Source: Alloalcanivorax xenomutans
GTDB taxonomy: Bacteria; Pseudomonadota; Gammaproteobacteria; Pseudomonadales; Alcanivoracaceae
Reading direction: 5' to 3'
Assembly: GCF_900217905.1 (NCBI RefSeq)
Contig: NZ_OBMO01000031.1
Coordinates: forward strand, 1 to 43,759
Length of the DNA stretch: 43,759 nt
The notes under the pieces are model-generated. The model was given only the letters and a program-made list of their open reading frames with translations, had not been told where the DNA came from and did not search any database. Both the position numbers and the translations under genes were made by a program. The first letter of the stretch is position 1, and each line of letters opens with the position of its first letter. This document shows positions 34,307 to 43,555 of this stretch, piece by piece.

Positions 34307-34657
34307 ATGAAAGTGCGTACCACCAAGGAACAGCAGCGCGAGCGACTGCGCCGGGATATGGAGCGTTTTCTGTCCCGGGGCGGGAGTATCAAGCGCGTGC
34401 CCCCCGGCACCAGCGGCGAGCCCCCGCGAGGTGCCCGACCATTATCTCCGTTCAGCCACACGCCCAGGCCCCCGCGTACCGATTTGTCACGGCTGGCCGC
34501 CACCATCGACGCCCGCAAGCATAAGCCCAAGGTCCGCCGCACCCGATCCGCCGCGCCGCGCCGCCGGCTGATCTATGACGACTTCGGTGAGCCTTTACGC
34601 TGGGTCTGGGGAGACGCCACCACCGCCCCCGACACCCCGGACAAGGAGAATTCATGA
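34307..34657 (+). CDS. Small basic protein with FLSRGG motif
   Basis: 116 residues, rich in Arg, Lys and Pro. The segment DMERFLSRGGSIKRVPPGTSGEPP resembles, from memory, the short conserved core of the Pseudomonas transcription factor SutA (FLSRGGKVQEI), but the rest does not match. It ends in YDDFGEPLRWVWGD, which looks like a conserved short tail. It has no strong ribosome site and overlaps the next gene (ATGA). Function unknown; a small nucleic-acid or RNA-polymerase-binding protein is a guess. Confidence 0.55.
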   Translation: MKVRTTKEQQRERLRRDMERFLSRGGSIKRVPPGTSGEPPRGARPLSPFSHTPRPPRTDLSRLAATIDARKHKPKVRRTRSAAPRRRLIYDDFGEPLRWVWGDATTAPDTPDKENS

Positions 34658-35424
34658 ACCGCCTGATCGCGCTGAGCCTGCTGCTGCTCGGTTCCCTGGC
34701 CCACGCCGACATTATCGAACAGAAAGTGAACCTCCCCGGCGGCGTCGGCACTGGCGTACTGTACATGGACGAGGACCAGGAACGGCTTACCGCCGGGGTC
34801 ATCGTGGTCCACGAATGGTGGGGGCTGAACAATTACATCCGCAACCGGAGCCGGCAACTGGCCGCGGAAGGCTACGTGGCACTGGCCGTGGACATGTACA
34901 ACGAAAAAGTGGCGCAGCACCCCAAGGACGCCAAGGCGTTCATGGAGCAGGCCCTGGCCGAGCCGGAAAAGATGACCGCCCGCTTCAATGCCGCCAAGAC
35001 GCTGCTGCGCAAGATGCAGTATGTGGACGACAACCGGATTTACGCGGTGGGCTACTGTTTCGGTGGCGGCGTGGTGCTGGAGCAGGCCCGCAGGGGCAAT
35101 GATCTGGCCGGCGTGGCCAGCTTCCACGGCACCCTGGCGACGCAAAATCCAGCGGGTCCCGGCGACATCAAGGCACGCATCCTGGTGGCCACCGGGCAGG
35201 CCGACCCCATGGTGCCACCGGAGCAGGTCTCGGCACTGGTGGAGGAACTGAACAACGCCGGCGCGGAATATCAGCTGCTCAGCTTCCCCGACGCCAAGCA
35301 CGGCTTCACCAATCCCGAGGCGGATCAGTTTGGTCAGCGTTTCGACATGCCCCTGGCCTACGACGCCGAAGCCGACCGGGAGAGCTGGCGGGCACTGACG
35401 GAGTTTCTCGATAGCACACCCTGA
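34654..35424 (+). CDS. Secreted dienelactone hydrolase-family protein
   Basis: 256-residue alpha/beta hydrolase with a signal peptide (MNRLIALSLLLLGSLAHAD), so probably periplasmic. The DLH-type triad is visible: Cys135 in GYCFGG, Asp184 in GQADPMVPP and His216 in DAKHGFTNP. The conserved GVIVVHEWWGLNN also fits. Cytosolic DLH opens dienelactone in chlorocatechol breakdown; exported homologues have unknown substrates. It ends about 120 bp before the guanidine operon promoter. Confidence 0.9.
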   Translation: MNRLIALSLLLLGSLAHADIIEQKVNLPGGVGTGVLYMDEDQERLTAGVIVVHEWWGLNNYIRNRSRQLAAEGYVALAVDMYNEKVAQHPKDAKAFMEQALAEPEKMTARFNAAKTLLRKMQYVDDNRIYAVGYCFGGGVVLEQARRGNDLAGVASFHGTLATQNPAGPGDIKARILVATGQADPMVPPEQVSALVEELNNAGAEYQLLSFPDAKHGFTNPEADQFGQRFDMPLAYDAEADRESWRALTEFLDSTP

Positions 35425-35434
35425 CGCCCCTGAA

Positions 35435-35471
35435 TGCACCACCTTCGGGCATGGCGCACCAAACTGGCGCC
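35435..35471 (+). promoter_or_regulatory. Two NtrC-like enhancer sites
   Basis: TGCACCACCTTCGGGCA (35435-35451) and CGCACCAAACTGGCGCC (35455-35471) each resemble the NtrC consensus TGCACCAnnnTGGTGCA (second about 13 of 17). Their centres are 20 bp apart and lie about 110-130 bp upstream of the predicted sigma-54 start, the classic spacing of glnA enhancers. The second overlaps an 11-bp inverted repeat (GGGCATGGCGC ... GCGCCATGCCC, 35448-35478), which could instead be a hairpin. Confidence 0.55.
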
Positions 35472-35546
35472 ATGCCCGCCCCATCCGCAGGCCCTCCACC
35501 CCGTTTTTCCTCCCCCGATCCCCCGCAATCCCTGGCCTGCACCGAT

Positions 35547-35563
35547 TTGGCACCGCTCTTGCT
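35547..35563 (+). promoter_or_regulatory. Sigma-54 (RpoN) promoter of the guanidine operon
   Basis: TTGGCAC-N5-TTGCT: the invariant GG (35549-35550) and GC (35561-35562) are exactly ten bases apart, and the flanks match the -24/-12 consensus TGGCAC-N5-TTGCW. The predicted start is about 35574. No sigma-70 promoter of comparable quality was seen here. Confidence 0.85.
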
Positions 35564-35624
35564 GGTATACCGGCGTGAGGAATCGAATGGCCGGTGGCCA
35601 TCCACACTCGACAATTTGCTTCCA

Positions 35625-35722
35625 ATAGACCGCTAGGGTTCCGATCGGCGCCGCCGATGCCTGGTCCGAGAGCAGTCGACCTTCGCTGAAGGTTACACGG
35701 CGGGACAAAAGCCCGGGAGGAC
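35625..35722 (+). promoter_or_regulatory. Guanidine-I riboswitch (ykkC class)
   Basis: The three conserved blocks occur in order: CTAGGGTTCCG (35633-35643), CTGGTCCGAGAG (35661-35672) and ACACGG followed by CGGGACAAAAGCCCGGGAG (35695-35719). These are the hallmark of the ykkC guanidine-I aptamer, which binds free guanidinium and turns genes on. The aptamer ends about 55 nt before the first start codon. No clear terminator lies between, and AGGAGG precedes the ATG, so translational control is possible. It strongly suggests that the operon acts on guanidine rather than urea. Confidence 0.93.
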
Positions 35723-35775
35723 ACGATGACACCTGTCATTGGATTCCTCTTCGTCCGTAACCCAGGAGGTCCGAC

Positions 35776-36822
35776 ATGACCCGTTTGCTCACCACCGTCT
35801 GCACCACCGCCCTGCTCGCCCTGACGCTCGCCCCCCCTGTCCAGGCCCAGGCCCGGGACAGTTTCAAGGTCTGCTGGTCCATCTACGTGGGCTGGCTGCC
35901 CTGGGACTACGGCGCCGCCGAAGGCATCGTCGACAAATGGGCGGACAAGTACGACATCGACATCGAAGTGGTACAGATCAACGACTACATCGAGTCCATC
36001 AACCAGTACACCGCCGGCCAGTTCGACGGTTGCACCATGACCAACATGGACGCCCTGACCATCCCCGCCGCCGGCGGCGTCGACAGCACCGCGCTGATCG
36101 TTGGTGACTTCTCCAACGGCAACGACGGCATCGTGCTCAAGGACGCCGATAAACTCGAGGCCATCAAGGGCCGTCGCGTCAATCTGGTGGAACTGTCCGT
36201 CTCCCACTACCTGCTGGCCCGGGCGCTGGACAGCGTGGGACTCAGCGAGCGCGACATCACCGTGGTCAACACCGCCGACGCCGATCTGGTATCCGCTTTC
36301 AATACCCCCGACGTGACCGCCCTGGCCACCTGGAATCCGCTGCTGGGTACAATCAAGGAGTCTCCGGAAGCCAATCTGGTGTTCGACTCTTCCAAAATTC
36401 CCGGCGAAATCATCGACCTGATGGTGGTGAACACCGACACCCTGAAAGCCAATCCAGCCCTGGGCAAAGCGCTCACCGGCGCCTGGTACGAAATCATGGG
36501 GCACCTCAATGACAGCGGCTTCCGCCAGCATCTGGCCAATGTCGCCGCCACCGACCTGGACGGCCTGCGGATGCAGCTCGACGCCACCCGTCTGTTCGAC
36601 AAAGCCGAGGACGCGGTCACCTTCACCAACAGCCCGGCGCTGAAGGACACCATGCAGAAAGTGGCGGAATTCTCTTTTGACCACGGTCTGCTCGGCGAAG
36701 GCGCCCCGGATGCCGGCTTCGTTGGCGTGGAAACCCCCGCCGGCGTCTACGGCAACAACGGCAATATCAAACTGCGCTTTGACCCAACCTACATGACGAT
36801 GGCCGTCGAGGGTGAGCTGTAA
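35776..36822 (+). CDS. ABC transporter substrate-binding protein (guanidine/urea type)
   Basis: 348 residues with a cleavable signal peptide (LLTTVCTTALLALTLAPPVQAQA) behind a strong AGGAGG site. It belongs to the NrtA/SsuA/TauA-like periplasmic binding family (WSIYVGWLPWDYGAAEGIVDKWADKYDIDIEV, YTAGQFDGCTMTNMDALTIPA, ATWNPLL). Aromatic residues near the start (WxxYVGWLPW) fit a small cationic ligand. Such proteins accompany carboxylase genes under ykkC riboswitches and are presumed to bring in guanidine. First gene of the operon. Confidence 0.9.
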   Translation: MTRLLTTVCTTALLALTLAPPVQAQARDSFKVCWSIYVGWLPWDYGAAEGIVDKWADKYDIDIEVVQINDYIESINQYTAGQFDGCTMTNMDALTIPAAGGVDSTALIVGDFSNGNDGIVLKDADKLEAIKGRRVNLVELSVSHYLLARALDSVGLSERDITVVNTADADLVSAFNTPDVTALATWNPLLGTIKESPEANLVFDSSKIPGEIIDLMVVNTDTLKANPALGKALTGAWYEIMGHLNDSGFRQHLANVAATDLDGLRMQLDATRLFDKAEDAVTFTNSPALKDTMQKVAEFSFDHGLLGEGAPDAGFVGVETPAGVYGNNGNIKLRFDPTYMTMAVEGEL

Positions 36823-36861: not shown

Positions 36862-37677
36862 ATGAAGAAGTTGATCAACCGGCAACCCGGACGGGTCGCC
36901 ACCTGGGCGCTGGGGCTGTTGCCCTTCGCCCTTCTGCTGGTGGTGTACCTGCTGGCTTCCGACGCCCGCCTGGAAGCCAACCCCAACGACAAACTGCTGC
37001 CGGCGTTCAGTGCCATGGGCGATGCCATTCAACGCATGGCGTTCGAACCCAGCAAGCGCAGCGGCGAGTACCTGTTATGGGCGGATACCCTGGCCAGCCT
37101 CACCCGCCTGGCCATCGGCGTCGGCATCAGCGCCTTGATGGGACTGGTCTTCGGCATTGTCACCGGCACCCTGCCCTATGCCCGCGCCGGGTTGTCCCCG
37201 CTGATCACCGGGCTGTCGCTGGTGCCGCCGATGGCGATCCTGCCGATCCTGTTCATTCTGTTCGGGCTCGGCGAACTGGCCAAGGTGATGCTGATCATCA
37301 TCGGCATTACGCCTTTTCTGATCCGCGACTTGCAGCAAAGGGCCCGGGAGATCCCCGCCGAGCAGGTGATCAAGATGCAAACGCTCGGCGCCAACACCTG
37401 GCAGATCATTCTGCGTCTGGTGTGGCCGCAGATCATGCCGCGCCTGATCAGCGCGGTGCGGCTGTCATTGGGCTCCGCCTGGCTGTTCCTGATCGCCGCC
37501 GAAGCCATCGCCGCCACCGAAGGGCTGGGTTATCGCATCTTCCTGGTGCGCCGCTACCTGTCCATGGACGTGATCCTGCCCTACGTGCTCTGGATCACCC
37601 TGCTGGCGTTCGCCATCGACTTCCTGCTGGCCCGCTATTCCCGCTGGCGTTACCCCTGGTTCCACGGCAGTCACTGA
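36862..37677 (+). CDS. ABC transporter permease (guanidine/urea type)
   Basis: 271 residues starting at 36862 behind CAGGAG. It has about six membrane helices, a leading cytoplasmic segment, and the EAA loop in QQRAREIPAEQVIKMQTLGANTWQIILRLVWPQI. It is a member of the NrtB/TauC-like group, 39 bp downstream of the binding protein gene. It forms the channel for the imported substrate. Confidence 0.93.
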   Translation: MKKLINRQPGRVATWALGLLPFALLLVVYLLASDARLEANPNDKLLPAFSAMGDAIQRMAFEPSKRSGEYLLWADTLASLTRLAIGVGISALMGLVFGIVTGTLPYARAGLSPLITGLSLVPPMAILPILFILFGLGELAKVMLIIIGITPFLIRDLQQRAREIPAEQVIKMQTLGANTWQIILRLVWPQIMPRLISAVRLSLGSAWLFLIAAEAIAATEGLGYRIFLVRRYLSMDVILPYVLWITLLAFAIDFLLARYSRWRYPWFHGSH

Positions 37678-37696: not shown

Positions 37697-38479
37697 ATGG
37701 CTATCATCGAAATGAACAATCTGTGGAAGGAATACGGCGACCAGGTGGTGCTGGAACGCCTCAACGCCGAGGTGCGGGAAGGGGAATTCGTCACCCTGGT
37801 CGGCGCCTCCGGCTGCGGCAAGACCACCTTTCTGAAAATGCTGCTCGGCACCGAATCGCCCAGCCGGGGCAAGTTGCTGCTGGACGGCGCGCCGATCCCG
37901 GATCAGCCGGACGAGACCCGCGGCATCGTGTTCCAACGCTATTCCGTGCTGCCGCATCTGAGCGCGCTGGAAAACGTCATGCTGGCCGACGAGTTGCACC
38001 GACACAAACTCATCGGCCGCGCCTTCGGCGGCAAACGCAAAGCCTTGAAGGACGCCGCCATGGCCATGCTGGAATCCGTGGGGCTGACCCAGGCCGCCGG
38101 CAAGTTTCCCCACGAGCTGTCCGGTGGCATGCAACAGCGTCTGGCCATCGCCCAGGCATTGATGAAACGGCCGCGCATTTTGCTGCTGGACGAACCCTTC
38201 GGCGCGCTCGATCCCGGCATCCGCCGCGACATGCATCACCTGGTGCTGGATCTGTGGCGGCAACAGGGCCTGACCATCTTCATGGTCACCCATGACCTCG
38301 CCGAAGGCTTTTACCTCGGTACCCGGCTGTGGGTATTCGACAAGACCCGCCTGGACCCGCAAGCCCCCGGCGCCTACGGCGCGCGCATCACCTACGACCT
38401 GCCAGTGGGAGATTGCGACAAAGGCACGCTCACGGCCATCCAGGAGCAGGCGGACGCCACCGCCCGCACCATGGCCTAG
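37697..38479 (+). CDS. ABC transporter ATP-binding protein (guanidine/urea type)
   Basis: 260 residues. Walker A GASGCGKTT, Q-loop in VFQRYSVLPHL, signature LSGGMQQR, Walker B ILLLDEPFGALD and H-loop VTHDLAEG. NrtD/TauB-like. It pairs with the permease to form the importer. GGAGAAG lies nine bases before the ATG. Confidence 0.95.
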   Translation: MAIIEMNNLWKEYGDQVVLERLNAEVREGEFVTLVGASGCGKTTFLKMLLGTESPSRGKLLLDGAPIPDQPDETRGIVFQRYSVLPHLSALENVMLADELHRHKLIGRAFGGKRKALKDAAMAMLESVGLTQAAGKFPHELSGGMQQRLAIAQALMKRPRILLLDEPFGALDPGIRRDMHHLVLDLWRQQGLTIFMVTHDLAEGFYLGTRLWVFDKTRLDPQAPGAYGARITYDLPVGDCDKGTLTAIQEQADATARTMA

Positions 38480-38516: not shown

Positions 38517-39233
38517 ATGACCGAACCGCTGTACGACTACACCATGCCCGGTGGCGCCCATTGGTCGTTTCGCCTGCGCCGTGGCACCGCTCTGCGTCTC
38601 ACCGATCTGGAAGGCGGCGCCAACGTCGGCATGCTGTTCTACAACCCGGAAGAAAAACTGGAGCGTTACAACGCTCCGGACACCCTCAAGGGTCAGCACA
38701 CCTTCAAACTGACCCGCGGTAATTGTCTCTACTCCGACATGGGCCGGGTGTTCGCTTCCATTGTCGACGACAGCTTCGGCTGGCACGACACCGTCTGCGG
38801 TAACCTGGACGATGCCCGCCTGCTGGAGAAATACGGTGAGCACAATTACCAGCAATACCGCAACGACTGGACTCTGAGCGGCCACGCCAGTTTCCTCACC
38901 GAGTTGGCAAAATATGGCCTGGGAGAGCGAGACCTGGCCGCCAATCTCAATCTGTTCAGTAAGGTGGTCACCGACGATAACGGACAGCTGCGTTTCGACG
39001 CCGGCGCCGCCCGCGCCGGGGCGCAAATCACCCTGCGTTTCGAGATGGACACGCTGGTGGTGATGCACACCTGCCCGCACCCGCTCAATCCCGCCAGCGA
39101 CTATCCACGCAAACCAGTGCGGGTGGAAATGCTCACCGCCGCGCCGGTGGCAAAGGACGATTACTGCCTGAATTTTCGTCCGGAAAACGCCCGCGCCTTC
39201 GAAAACAACCGCCTCTATCACCTGGGCCTTTAG
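38517..39233 (+). CDS. Urea carboxylase-associated protein (DUF1989), probable carboxyguanidine deiminase subunit
   Basis: 238 residues from the ATG at 38517 behind AAGGAG. DUF1989 fold: YDYTMPGGAHWSFRLRRGTALRLTDLEGGANVGMLFYNPEEKLERYNAPDTLKGQHTF, then GWHDTVCGN and the conserved MHTCPHPLNP near the C-terminus. A pair of such proteins was shown in other bacteria to form a carboxyguanidine deiminase that turns carboxyguanidine into allophanate. Which of the two subunits this is cannot be settled by eye. Confidence 0.88.
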   Translation: MTEPLYDYTMPGGAHWSFRLRRGTALRLTDLEGGANVGMLFYNPEEKLERYNAPDTLKGQHTFKLTRGNCLYSDMGRVFASIVDDSFGWHDTVCGNLDDARLLEKYGEHNYQQYRNDWTLSGHASFLTELAKYGLGERDLAANLNLFSKVVTDDNGQLRFDAGAARAGAQITLRFEMDTLVVMHTCPHPLNPASDYPRKPVRVEMLTAAPVAKDDYCLNFRPENARAFENNRLYHLGL

Positions 39234-39242
39234 GAGACCATC

Positions 39243-39881
39243 ATGATTCGGGAAAGTCAGCTGAAGCCCGCCGATGCTCATTTCCGCGACACCGTCCCCG
39301 CCGGCGATTACTTTCTTAAAGTGCTGAAGGAAGGCGAGACCCTGCGCATCCTCGATCTGGAAGGCAACCAGGCGGCGGACACGCTGTTTTTCAATGCCAA
39401 GGACACCGCCGAGCGCTACAGCGCCATGGACACCATCCGCGAACAGGGCAACGTCTTCCTCACCGCCGGCACCGTGCTGCGTTCCAACCGCAACCGGCCG
39501 ATGCTGGAAATCACCGCTGACACCTGCGGCCGCCACGATACCCTCGGCGGCGCCTGCGCCACGGAAAGCAACACCGTGCGTTACGCGCTGGAAAAACGCT
39601 GCATGCACGCCTGCCGGGACAGCTGGATGCGGGCCGTTAACGAAAATGAGGAATACGGGCTGAGCAAGCGCGACATCACCCACAACATCAATTTTTTCAT
39701 GAACGTCCCGGTGACCGCCGAAGGCGGCCTCACCTTCGCTGACGGGATTTCCGCACCGGGCAAGTATGTGGAAATGAAAGCGCTGATGGATATCACCGTG
39801 CTGATTTCCAACTGCCCGCAGCTCAATAACCCGTGCAACGGCTACAACCCCACGCCCATCGAAGTGCTGATCTGGCACTGA
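39243..39881 (+). CDS. Urea carboxylase-associated protein (DUF1989), second deiminase subunit
   Basis: 212 residues, nine base pairs behind its paralogue. It shares the same fold: [55 protein letters not shown] and the C-terminal [24 protein letters not shown]. It has extra cysteines (MHACRDSW). Together with the previous protein it is expected to deaminate carboxyguanidine between the carboxylase and allophanate hydrolase steps. Confidence 0.88.
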
Positions 39882-39964
39882 CTATCGGAATAAGGCGCCG
39901 GGGACGACCCCGGAAGCCGGACGCTTACGGCGGGACGACCCGCCATCGCCGCAGAGCCGACATC

Positions 39965-42900
39965 ATGTTCAAGAAGGTACTGATCGCCAACCGTGGCGCC
40001 ATCGCCACCCGAATCATCCGTACCCTGAAAACCCTGGGCGTCACCAGCGTCGCGGTCTACGCCGACGCGGACGCCGATTCCCGCCACGTGAGCCTGGCCG
40101 ACGAGGCTTACTGTCTGGGCGACGGCAGCGCCGCCAGCACCTATCTGAATCAGGATAAGTTACTGACACTGATGGCCGAACAGCAGGTGGATGCGGTGCA
40201 TCCCGGCTATGGTTTTCTCAGTGAGAACCCGGATTTCGTCGAGCGTTGCGAAGCCCAAGGCATCGCCTTTATCGGCCCCACCCCGGAACAGATGCGGGAC
40301 TTCGGCCTCAAACACACCGCCCGCCAGCTGGCGGAAGACAATCAGGTGCCGCTGCTGCCGGGCACCGGTCTGCTGACCGATCCGGAACAGGCGCTGGCCG
40401 CCGCCACCGGCATCGGCTATCCGGTGATGTTGAAAAGCACGGCCGGCGGCGGTGGTATCGGCATGCAGATTTGCCACGATGCCGAATCGCTGCGCAAAGC
40501 CTGGGACACGGTACGCCGGCTCAGCGCCAACAACTTCTCCAACGATGGCGTGTTCCTGGAAAAATACATTGAGCGCGCCCGCCACATCGAAGTGCAGGTG
40601 TTCGGCGATGGAAAAGGCCAGGCGGTGACGCTCGGCGAGCGTGACTGCTCCGCCCAGCGCCGCCATCAAAAAGTGGTGGAGGAAACCCCGGCGCCCAATC
40701 TTCCCGAAGAGGTTCGGCGCACTTTGCACGACACCGCACGGCGTCTGATGGCGGCGGTGCATTACCGCAACGCCGGGACCGTGGAATTCATTCTCGACCA
40801 GGATACCAACCGCTTTTACTTCCTGGAGGTGAACACTCGCCTGCAGGTGGAGCACGGCGTCACCGAGCAGGTTTACGGCGCCGACCTGGTGTCCTGGATG
40901 GTGCGGCTGGCCGCCGGCGAACTACCGCCGCTGGAACACCTGGCCGGCGATCTCACGCCGCACGGTCATTCGATCCAGGTACGTCTCTATGCGGAGGATC
41001 CGAACAAGGATTTCCAGCCCAGTGCTGGTCTGCTGACCACCGTGCGTTTTCCTGAAGCGGACGGCCAACGGCTGCGGCTGGACCATTGGATCGAAGCGGG
41101 ACTGACCGTATCCCCGCTGTACGACCCGATGCTGGCCAAGGTCATCGTTCACGAGGATGATCGCGAGCGCGCTCTGGCTGCCCTGGAGCAAGCGCTCGGC
41201 GACACTCTGGTGGAAGGCATCGAAACCAACCGCGAGTATGTGCTGGCGATCCTCGCCGACCCGGCGTTTCGGCAAGGCCGCATGACCACTCGCTATCTGA
41301 ACGACTTCCGCTACCAACCCGATACCCTGGATGTCCTTGCCGGCGGTACCCTGACCACCGTCCAGGATTATCCCGGGCGCGGCGGCTACTGGCCGGTGGG
41401 CGTGCCGCCGTCCGGCCCGTTCGACAGCCTCAGTTTCCGCCTCGGTAACCGGTTGCTGGGCAACGACGAGAATGCGGCCGGCCTGGAATGCACGCTCAAT
41501 GGCCCGACCCTGCGCTTCAACCGCGACACCCGGATCGCGCTGACCGGCGCGGATATGGGCGCCACGCTCGACGGCGAGTCCGTGCCCCGCTACCAGGCGG
41601 TGACGGTGATCGCCGGCCAGACGCTGAAGCTGGGCAAGGTCAACGACACCGGTGCCCGCGCTTACCTGGCCGTGGCTGGCGGCATTCAATGCGAACCCTA
41701 CCTGGGCTCACGCAGCACTTTTACGCTGGGTCAGTTTGGCGGCCACGGCGGCCGGGCTCTGCGCACCGGCGATGTGTTGCATCTGAGCCCGCACGGCGCG
41801 GTCCCGCAAGCCATCGAGGTGCCACCCGCGCTGAAGCCGAAGCTGCGCGATACCTGGACATTGCGAGTCATCTACGGTCCCCATGGCGCACCGGACTTCT
41901 TCACCGACAACGACGTCGCCACCTTCTTCAGCAGCGATTGGCAGGTCCATTACAACTCCAGCCGCACCGGCATACGACTGGTGGGGCCGAAACCGGAATG
42001 GGCCCGCAGCGACGGCGGCGAAGCCGGCATGCACCCTTCCAACATCCACGATAACGCCTATGCGGTGGGTACCATTGATTTCACCGGCGATATGCCGGTG
42101 ATTCTGGGCCCGGATGGTCCGTCGCTCGGTGGCTTTGTCTGTCCCGCCACGGTGATCAAAGCCGACCTGTGGAAACTGGGACAGCTGAAAGCCGGGGATA
42201 AAGTACGCTTTCAACCGGTCTCCCTGGAAGACGCCGACCGTCTGTGTGAAGAACAGGACCGCTGTCTGCAACACCTGAACGCACCCGAACTGGTAGTGAA
42301 GTCCGCCCCTGTGATCACCCCGGTACTGGACCGCCTGCCGGAGGAGGAAGCCGGTGTGGAGGTAGTCTACCGAGCCGCCGGTGACCGTTATGTGCTGGTG
42401 GAATACGGTCCACTGGAACTGGATTTGCGCCTGCGTTTCCGGGCTCACGCCCTGATGCTGTGGCTGGAGCAGCAGCGGATTGACGGCGTGCTGGAACTGA
42501 CCCCCGGCATTCGTTCCCTGCAGATTCATTTCGATCCACGGCAGCTGCCGCGCAACACCTTGTTAACGCTATTGAAGGAAGCAGAACTGTCCTTGCAGCA
42601 ACAGGATGATTTGCAAGTGCCGTCACGTATCGTTCATCTGCCACTGAGCTGGGACGACGAGGCCTGCCGGCTGGCGATCCAGAAATATATGCAATCGGTG
42701 CGCAAGGACGCGCCCTGGTGTCCGAGCAATATCGAATTCATCCGCCGCATCAATGGCCTCGACAGCATCGACGAGGTCAAACGGATTCTGTTCGAGGCCA
42801 GCTATGTGGTGATGGGGTTGGGTGATGTTTACCTGGGCGCCCCGGTGGCCACGCCTTACGATCCCCGTCACCGGCTGGTCACCACCAAATACAATCCGGC

Positions 42901-43555
42901 GCGCACCTGGACCGCGGAAAATTCCGTCGGCATCGGCGGTTCCTATTTGTGTGTGTACGGCATGGAGGGCCCGGGTGGCTATCAATTCGTCGGCCGCACC
43001 CTGCAAATGTGGAATCGCTATCGCACCACCGAGGCCTTCACCAAACCCTGGCTGCTACGGTTCTTCGATCAGATTCGCTTCTACGAAGTCAGCGCCGGGG
43101 AACTGCAACGAATCCGCCGGGACTTTCCCAAAGGCGACTACCCGCTCAAGGTGGAAGAGACCACATTCAGCCTCAATGCTTATCAGGATTTTCTGCGGCG
43201 CAATGACGACAGCATCCGGGCCTTCACCGGGCAGCGGAACCAGGCCTTCGAAGAGGAACTGCAACGTTGGGTGGAAAGCGGCCAGATTCATTTCGAGTCG
43301 CAACAGGATCTGAATGGCGACGACGGCGACGGTCTGCCGGAAGGCACGCCGGTGGAATCCCCCACCGCCGGCAACATCTGGCAACTCAACGTGGCCGAGG
43401 GCGACAATGTGGAAGCCGGCCAGGTGGTGGCAATCCTGGAATCCATGAAGATGGAGATCGAAGTCACCGCCCCGGAAGCCGGCCAGGTGCTGCATATAGC
43501 GCGGCAGGAAGGCCAGCAGATCAACGCCGGCCAGGCCATCATGGTGCTGGGCTAG
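39965..43555 (+). CDS. Biotin-dependent urea/guanidine carboxylase
   Basis: 1196 residues from the ATG at 39965. In order: biotin carboxylase (1-450; [44 protein letters not shown]), a KipA-like carboxyltransferase half (about 460-770; [31 protein letters not shown]), a KipI-like half (about 795-880), the urea-carboxylase-specific C-terminal stretch ([20 protein letters not shown]) and a biotinyl domain with Lys1162 in ESMKME. This is the urea carboxylase architecture. The guanidine riboswitch and DUF1989 partners point to guanidine as substrate (carboxyguanidine as product). The distinguishing Asp/Asn residue could not be placed by eye. No allophanate hydrolase follows within the window. Confidence 0.93.

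Follow-up and report, generated by a model that had tools for sequence, protein, structure and literature searches.

The question raised by this locus, from a marine, Alloalcanivorax-like bacterium, is how an operon that appears to serve guanidine assimilation is regulated when its leader carries, one after the other, sequences resembling NtrC sites, a sigma-54 promoter and a guanidine riboswitch. The window, i.e. the whole stretch of DNA that was analysed, is one complete contig comprising 43,759 of the 4,350,020 bases of the genome. On the basis of motifs, genome content and comparison with relatives, it is very probable that the region in front of the operon acts as a control region with two serial inputs, NtrC-P/sigma-54 first and a guanidine riboswitch second. 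The operon comprised the following features.

35776–36822, forward strand: substrate-binding protein of an ABC transporter (TIGR03427, 528 bits; family name ‘putative urea’)
36862–37677, forward strand: ABC permease (family-model matches)
37697–38479, forward strand: ABC ATP-binding protein (family-model matches)
38517–39233, forward strand: UAAP1 (DUF1989; TIGR03425, 343 bits, the scan beginning two codons 5' of the likely ATG)
39243–39881, forward strand: UAAP2 (DUF1989; TIGR03424, 334 bits)
39896–39943, forward strand: Guanidine-II riboswitch (RF01068, 39.5 bits), directly 5' of the carboxylase gene
39965–43555, forward strand: urea/guanidine carboxylase of 1196 residues (TIGR02712, 1866 bits)

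As expected for a guanidine-carboxylase operon, a carboxylase, two DUF1989 proteins and an ABC transporter were found under a guanidine riboswitch. The riboswitches and the deiminase partners point to guanidine, rather than urea, as the operon substrate, and guanidine is likely to be the substrate of the TIGR03427-type binding protein also. UAAP1 and UAAP2 are each likely to be a subunit of carboxyguanidine deiminase; we take them to be CgdA/B, with A and B left unordered, in agreement with the description of the Vreelandella operon. Two guanidine sensors of different classes are present, Guanidine-I at the start of the operon and Guanidine-II before the carboxylase gene, the second of which did not figure in the finding of the initial annotation. 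Among the matches listed for the transporter protein, which may omit the window's own genome or very near genomes, the best named one was from Alloalcanivorax balearicus (97 %).

Upstream of the transporter genes the following elements were identified.

34654–35424, forward strand: dienelactone-hydrolase family gene (Pfam DLH, 164 bits), the upstream bound of the regulatory region
35435–35451, forward strand: NtrC-type dyad 1, TGCACCACCTTCGGGCA, 12/14
35455–35471, forward strand: NtrC-type dyad 2, CGCACCAAACTGGCGCC, 11/14
35548–35563, forward strand: sigma-54 −24/−12 box TGGCACC-GCTC-TTGCT, TGGCACCGCTCTTGCT, with GG-N10-GC, 11/12
35574, forward strand: predicted transcription start, the C of GC being taken as −12
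35622–35721, forward strand: Guanidine-I riboswitch aptamer (RF00442; Rfam covariance model, 89.9 bits)
35715–35749, forward strand: tentative candidate for an expression-platform hairpin, in which GGGAGGA at the aptamer end would pair with TCCTC around ATGACA/TGTCAT

NtrC sites are recognized by a dyad consensus, scored here against TGCACCA-N3-TGGTGCA, and by pairing on the same face of the helix, whilst sigma-54 promoters possess GG-N10-GC in a TGGCAC-N5-TTGC context. The sigma-54 consensus has also been quoted as GGcacg-N4-ttGC (PMC5491218). The initial annotation had described two NtrC-like sites 20 bp apart and, about 80 bp further on, a perfect sigma-54 promoter. Both dyads were located, with a start-to-start distance of 20 bp, and the gap from dyad 2 to the box measured 76 nt. 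The core of the promoter was indeed perfect (GG at 35549–35550 and GC at 35561–35562, with a spacing of exactly 10), whereas the wider box, at 11/12, was not a full match; recomputing the start from the box returned the position originally proposed, close to 35574. NtrC-like matches in the window alone were near chance, six being found (up to three mismatches) compared with 2.8 expected. A third, weaker NtrC-like site (TGCACCGATTTGGCACC, 35538–35554, 10/14), possibly a chance occurrence, shares positions with the −24 element of the sigma-54 box. Another exact sigma-54-type box, which may likewise have arisen by chance, lies on the minus strand of the window at 1825–1840 (TGGCACTCATGTTGCA); no NtrC dyad of at least 10/14 was detected in the 300 nt upstream of it and the ORF downstream has only 74 codons.

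The guanidine aptamer proposed to lie downstream of the promoter was identified as Guanidine-I, the covariance model being matched over its full length (1–107 of 107 positions; 89.9 bits, the cut-off being 63 bits). The switching step that would follow is the weakest part of the proposed mechanism. The candidate platform hairpin appears in a single predicted fold, GGGAG could pair downstream in 130 of 138 leaders, only slightly above the 108–122 of 138 found in letter shuffles, and the predicted fold of the complete leader does not surpass those of shuffles (z −0.92). A terminator scan of positions 35400–35800 returned one weak terminator-like site, at 35724–35741. In the accessible text of Sinn et al. 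(PMC12508155), Gd-I presumably acts by destabilizing an intrinsic terminator. In A. dieselolei, dRNA-seq detected the Guanidine-I leader as one of a set of short RNAs that form distinct read peaks and are described as ‘mainly’ having their own start sites (PMC9788540, in part), and this short RNA could be an aborted leader. The same source suggests export as the role of the A. dieselolei locus; the gene content of the operon read here argues for uptake and use rather than export. A 17-codon ORF at 35726–35779, the stop codon of which overlaps the transporter start codon, was considered as a leader peptide and rejected, as neither its frame nor its length was conserved when judged by eye in the leaders of 70 named loci.

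The placement of the box was compared across genomes. Searches for Guanidine-I covered three partly overlapping sets of genomes, from the family (40 of 46 with a match), the class (29 of 369) and the phylum (43 of 398). Transporter-protein matches added 80 named loci, in which the aptamer was found by letter pattern in 70 and by Rfam in eight more (total 78). The 214 pooled aptamers were reduced to 185 by removing near-duplicates and three with short or masked flanks; this set combines covariance-model coordinates with pattern matches in the named loci and omits three listed places (one of G004 and two that scored under the Rfam threshold). A box of at least 10/12 was present within 200 nt upstream of 153 of these 185 non-redundant aptamers, which are not phylogenetically independent, compared with 0/185 on the opposite strand; at a threshold of at least 9/12 the counts were 167/185 and 8/185. 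By set, boxes of at least 10/12 preceded 69 of 83 named aptamers, 15 of 17 from the same family, 25 of 27 from the order, 37 of 43 from the class and seven of 15 from other classes, and 32 of the 185 aptamers had no such box. In a set selected by letter pattern, a procedure that misses some aptamers, the box was found in 131 of 156; the adjoining 200 nt further upstream contained none, shuffles gave a mean of 2.0 and random windows from the named loci contained it in 42 of 5000 cases.

A scan from −200 to +100 nt detected 157 boxes of at least 10/12, each of which starts upstream of the aptamer. Most (103/157) lie at −80 to −61, and 14 form a second cluster from −30 to about −20. For the 12 boxes with the latest predicted starts, transcription would begin between −2 and +6 in aptamer-model coordinates; the first six positions of the model are unpaired, and the RNA would therefore begin at the aptamer but outside its paired core. 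This placement fits what a functional promoter needs. It is the cross-genome comparison, not the window alone, that lifts the elements far above chance; the proposal of a sigma-54/NtrC promoter stacked on a guanidine riboswitch is borne out in that the elements are present and their layout is conserved, and the architecture is widespread, not singular. In three Pseudomonas loci (L105, L110 and L116), two successive substrate-binding-protein genes at about 3.2–4.9 kb are each preceded by a sigma-54 box and Guanidine-I, and the whole control unit looks to have been duplicated there.

The identity of the activator was addressed through the enhancer regions, defined as the 105 nt beginning 140 nt before the box. 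With no motif given, the top 6-mer was GCACCA/TGGTGC, found in 92 of 131 enhancer regions compared with 8.8 in letter shuffles. For the dyad test, near-duplicates were trimmed slightly differently, giving 183 aptamers, 151 of them with a box: dyads of at least 11/14 occurred in 51 of the 151 box-bearing regions compared with 0.75 in dinucleotide shuffles, and dyads of at least 10/14 in 107 compared with 8.2. After more stringent removal of redundancy, a dyad of at least 11/14 was present in 26 of 79 regions, compared with 0.8 in shuffles. None of 200 permuted palindromes matched the performance of the real dyad. Spacings between paired dyads were concentrated at 20–21 or 30–31 bp (38/66), with a smaller peak of nine at 13 bp, and dyad-to-box positions kept a 10.5-bp period (n=107, R 0.52; P about 4e-13, a value that ignores shared ancestry).

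It is improbable that, with a genuine sigma-54 promoter and riboswitch, an activator other than NtrC drives the operon. The genome encodes RpoN (490 bits) and one NtrC above the family cut-off (749 bits), but also six further NtrC-like activators (208–367 bits) below the ntrC cut-off that could be candidates, and in other classes none of the seven box-bearing loci had a dyad of at least 10/14. The activator claim therefore extends no further than Gammaproteobacteria as defined by GTDB, a class that takes in the former Betaproteobacteria. Within that class, the emergence of the NtrC-type half-site unsupplied and the 10.5-bp phasing of the dyads argue for NtrC, as does the finding that the genome's own glnA carries the same kind of sites, and homologous carboxylase genes are ntrC-dependent in B. 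cenocepacia (PMC5491218, in part). On a plasmid of Caballeronia sp. NK8 (Burkholderiales), an operon with Gd-I and Gd-II has a sigma-54 box, scoring 11/12, at −49 from the aptamer, and a dyad scoring 11/14 lies at −143. In five loci from other classes of the phylum (L170, L196, L197, L199 and L203), the box lies only 26–27 nt before the aptamer, the RNA is predicted to start at about the first base of the aptamer and no NtrC dyad of at least 10/14 was found; boxes without dyads suggest the use of another activator in those classes.

Elsewhere in the 4.35-Mb genome, the exact pattern TGGCAYN5TTGCW occurred 20 times, compared with seven for a reversed-pattern control, and the 20 boxes included those of glnA and nirB (both identified through family models) and of atzF. 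The box of glnA is accompanied by the paired upstream dyads TGCACTATAATGGTGCG and TGCACGGCATTGGTGCT, and the grammar of sigma-54 box and NtrC dyad seen at the operon is used by glnA too. A dyad of at least 10/14 was found within 300 nt upstream of 11 of the 20 exact boxes, a few of these dyads overlapping the box, and not every box need therefore be an NtrC target. The gene for allophanate hydrolase, the enzyme that completes the pathway, is atzF (over both cut-offs) and lies on contig 4 with its own sigma-54 box (L238 1501–1516; contig position 195582) and a weak NtrC-like site (10/14). No guanidine riboswitch was found on contig 4, the one Guanidine-I and two Guanidine-II matches of the genome being located on contigs 9 and 32.

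Dyad 2 lies inside a 31-bp inverted repeat (35447–35477) with perfect 10-bp arms (35447–35456 and 35468–35477). The position of these arms right after the stop codon of the hydrolase gene would suit a terminator of that gene that merely resembles an NtrC site, which is nevertheless a very improbable reading: the scan of 35400–35800 flagged nothing at the repeat, no T-run follows it and, in relatives, GCACC dyads retain their phasing with the box. Both roles could coexist, and the repeat, just past the hydrolase gene, may form a hairpin in the mRNA of that gene as a second role. It is extremely improbable that a housekeeping promoter or read-through drives transcription, with the sigma-54 box incidental and the riboswitch as sole regulator, since, although the upstream gene is co-directional and the short leader RNA reported from A. 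dieselolei cultures grown as in that study might mean expression without nitrogen stress (PMC9788540, in part), a simple scan of 35400–35800 revealed no sigma-70-type promoter and the box was present in 153/185 cases compared with 0/185 on the opposite strand.

Loci concerned with export provided a contrast to the assimilatory operon, drawn with Guanidine-II loci, a different aptamer class from Guanidine-I. Of 190 Guanidine-I aptamers found by pattern, 185 were followed by a match to one of the operon proteins of the window and five were unclassified, leaving no Guanidine-I exporter set for comparison. In the genome itself, the exporter gene sugE is preceded by a Guanidine-II aptamer, and the roughly 245 nt examined upstream contain neither a sigma-54 box nor a GG-N10-GC core. 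None of the eight exporter-linked Guanidine-II loci, own sugE included, had a box of at least 10/12, although one (L226) has under 80 nt upstream and the SMR identity of the exporters rests on Pfam for three of the eight and on inspection by eye for the remainder. Amongst the other Guanidine-II loci, a box of at least 10 was found in two of 14 (L224 and L236). In this small sample, sigma-54 accompanies assimilation, not export. Two Guanidine-II aptamers (L224 and L229) precede what looks, on inspection by eye, like a fatty-acid desaturase gene; L224 has a sigma-54 box of 11/12, and a 70-residue piece of its protein gave no Pfam match.

Control by NtrC-P/sigma-54 followed by the guanidine riboswitch would operate as follows. 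Under nitrogen limitation, NtrC-P would bind the two phased dyads and activate RNA polymerase–sigma-54 at 35548–35563, giving RNA that starts near 35574 and the leader of which is predicted by the covariance model to fold the Guanidine-I aptamer. Judging from the behaviour of the riboswitch family, in the absence of guanidine the 3' end of the aptamer would join the downstream hairpin and the RNA would stop or be left untranslated, whereas in its presence the transporter, the deiminases and the carboxylase would be made, the carboxylase under the further Guanidine-II switch. From what is known of sigma-54/NtrC promoters and of Guanidine-I riboswitches, the net result would approximate an AND gate of nitrogen need and guanidine; the word ‘only’, used of both inputs in the initial annotation, appears too strong. 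Allophanate hydrolase, with a sigma-54 box and no riboswitch on another contig, and the exporter, with a riboswitch and no sigma-54 box, would each receive one of the two inputs. A broader hypothesis was considered to have slightly better than an even chance: a strict serial AND gate on guanidine assimilation across Gammaproteobacteria, with an essentially leak-free promoter that yields the riboswitch RNA solely in nitrogen hunger and an aptamer that settles the fate of every transcript, export escaping the nitrogen gate, the first described conserved unit of a sigma-54 promoter and a metabolite riboswitch (within the searches made), and other classes retaining the pair partly, with a changed activator. 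If this is true, the majority of the assimilatory Guanidine-I riboswitches sampled from Gammaproteobacteria function only during nitrogen shortage, and the distinction between guanidine as food (sigma-54 gated) and as a compound to be exported (outside the sigma-54 gate) would be explained. Experiments in ammonium-rich medium may then miss the riboswitch and guanidine utilization, as the switch RNA would not be made, and the purpose of guanidine in bacteria would become testable with simple reporters.

A search of the open-licence PMC literature, as far as its text was accessible, revealed no paper joining sigma-54 or NtrC with a guanidine riboswitch. In the accessible portions, the terms sigma, rpoN and ‘nitrogen limit’ were absent from a 2025 review (PMC12186494), a study of P. 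putida under nitrogen limitation listed urt genes only, with no ‘guanidin-’ (PMC7801951), a Paraburkholderia rpoN study had no urea carboxylase (PMC5748707), and work on E. coli NtrC (PMC9159945) and two further papers (PMC11647477 and PMC11410670) held nothing for or against. The initial annotation's view that there is no well-described example of the combination fits this literature, but the ntrC dependence of homologous carboxylase genes in Burkholderia, which a transcriptome table had already recorded (PMC5491218), and NtcA control of gifB are precedents in part.

The closest operon is that of Vreelandella boliviensis (PMC12508155, in part), which like the window has an ABC transporter, cgdA/B and gca, with Gd-I at the start and Gd-II before gca; unlike the window it includes atzF and mgdH/L inside the operon, an atzF lying here on another contig. 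The homologous Gd-I binds guanidine with a KD of 44 uM, and the operon is strongly up on guanidine compared with ammonium. A term search of the accessible text found neither ntr nor rpoN, the single ‘sigma’ being a supplier name, and the published guanidine-versus-ammonium proteomics alters both inputs together and cannot separate a nitrogen effect from a guanidine effect. In B. cenocepacia H111 (PMC5491218, in part), homologous carboxylase and transporter genes are present and strongly ntrC-dependent under nitrogen limitation: in an ntrC mutant the urea carboxylase (BCAS0272) changed by log2 −6.0, and the transporter and ‘aminomethyltransferase’ genes are listed as na(m). The accessible text mentions riboswitches 0 times; in a related operon, that of Caballeronia, Gd-I is combined with a sigma-54 box and an NtrC-type dyad, as in the window. 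A computed sigma-54 regulon survey (PMC12316311) includes 102 predicted sigma-54 genes of COG3665, 59 % of them named urea carboxylase; its accessible text contains no occurrence of ‘guanidin-’ and ‘riboswitch’ once, in a reference title. At Synechocystis gifB (PMC6316151, in part), a global nitrogen regulator (NtcA) and a ligand riboswitch (glutamine) act serially on one mRNA, as is proposed here; unlike at the window, NtcA represses, the promoter as described has no sigma-54, and the ligand and purpose differ. Set beside these systems, the two-input control region is real and conserved, and the combination is new as described within the literature searched, its parts being known.
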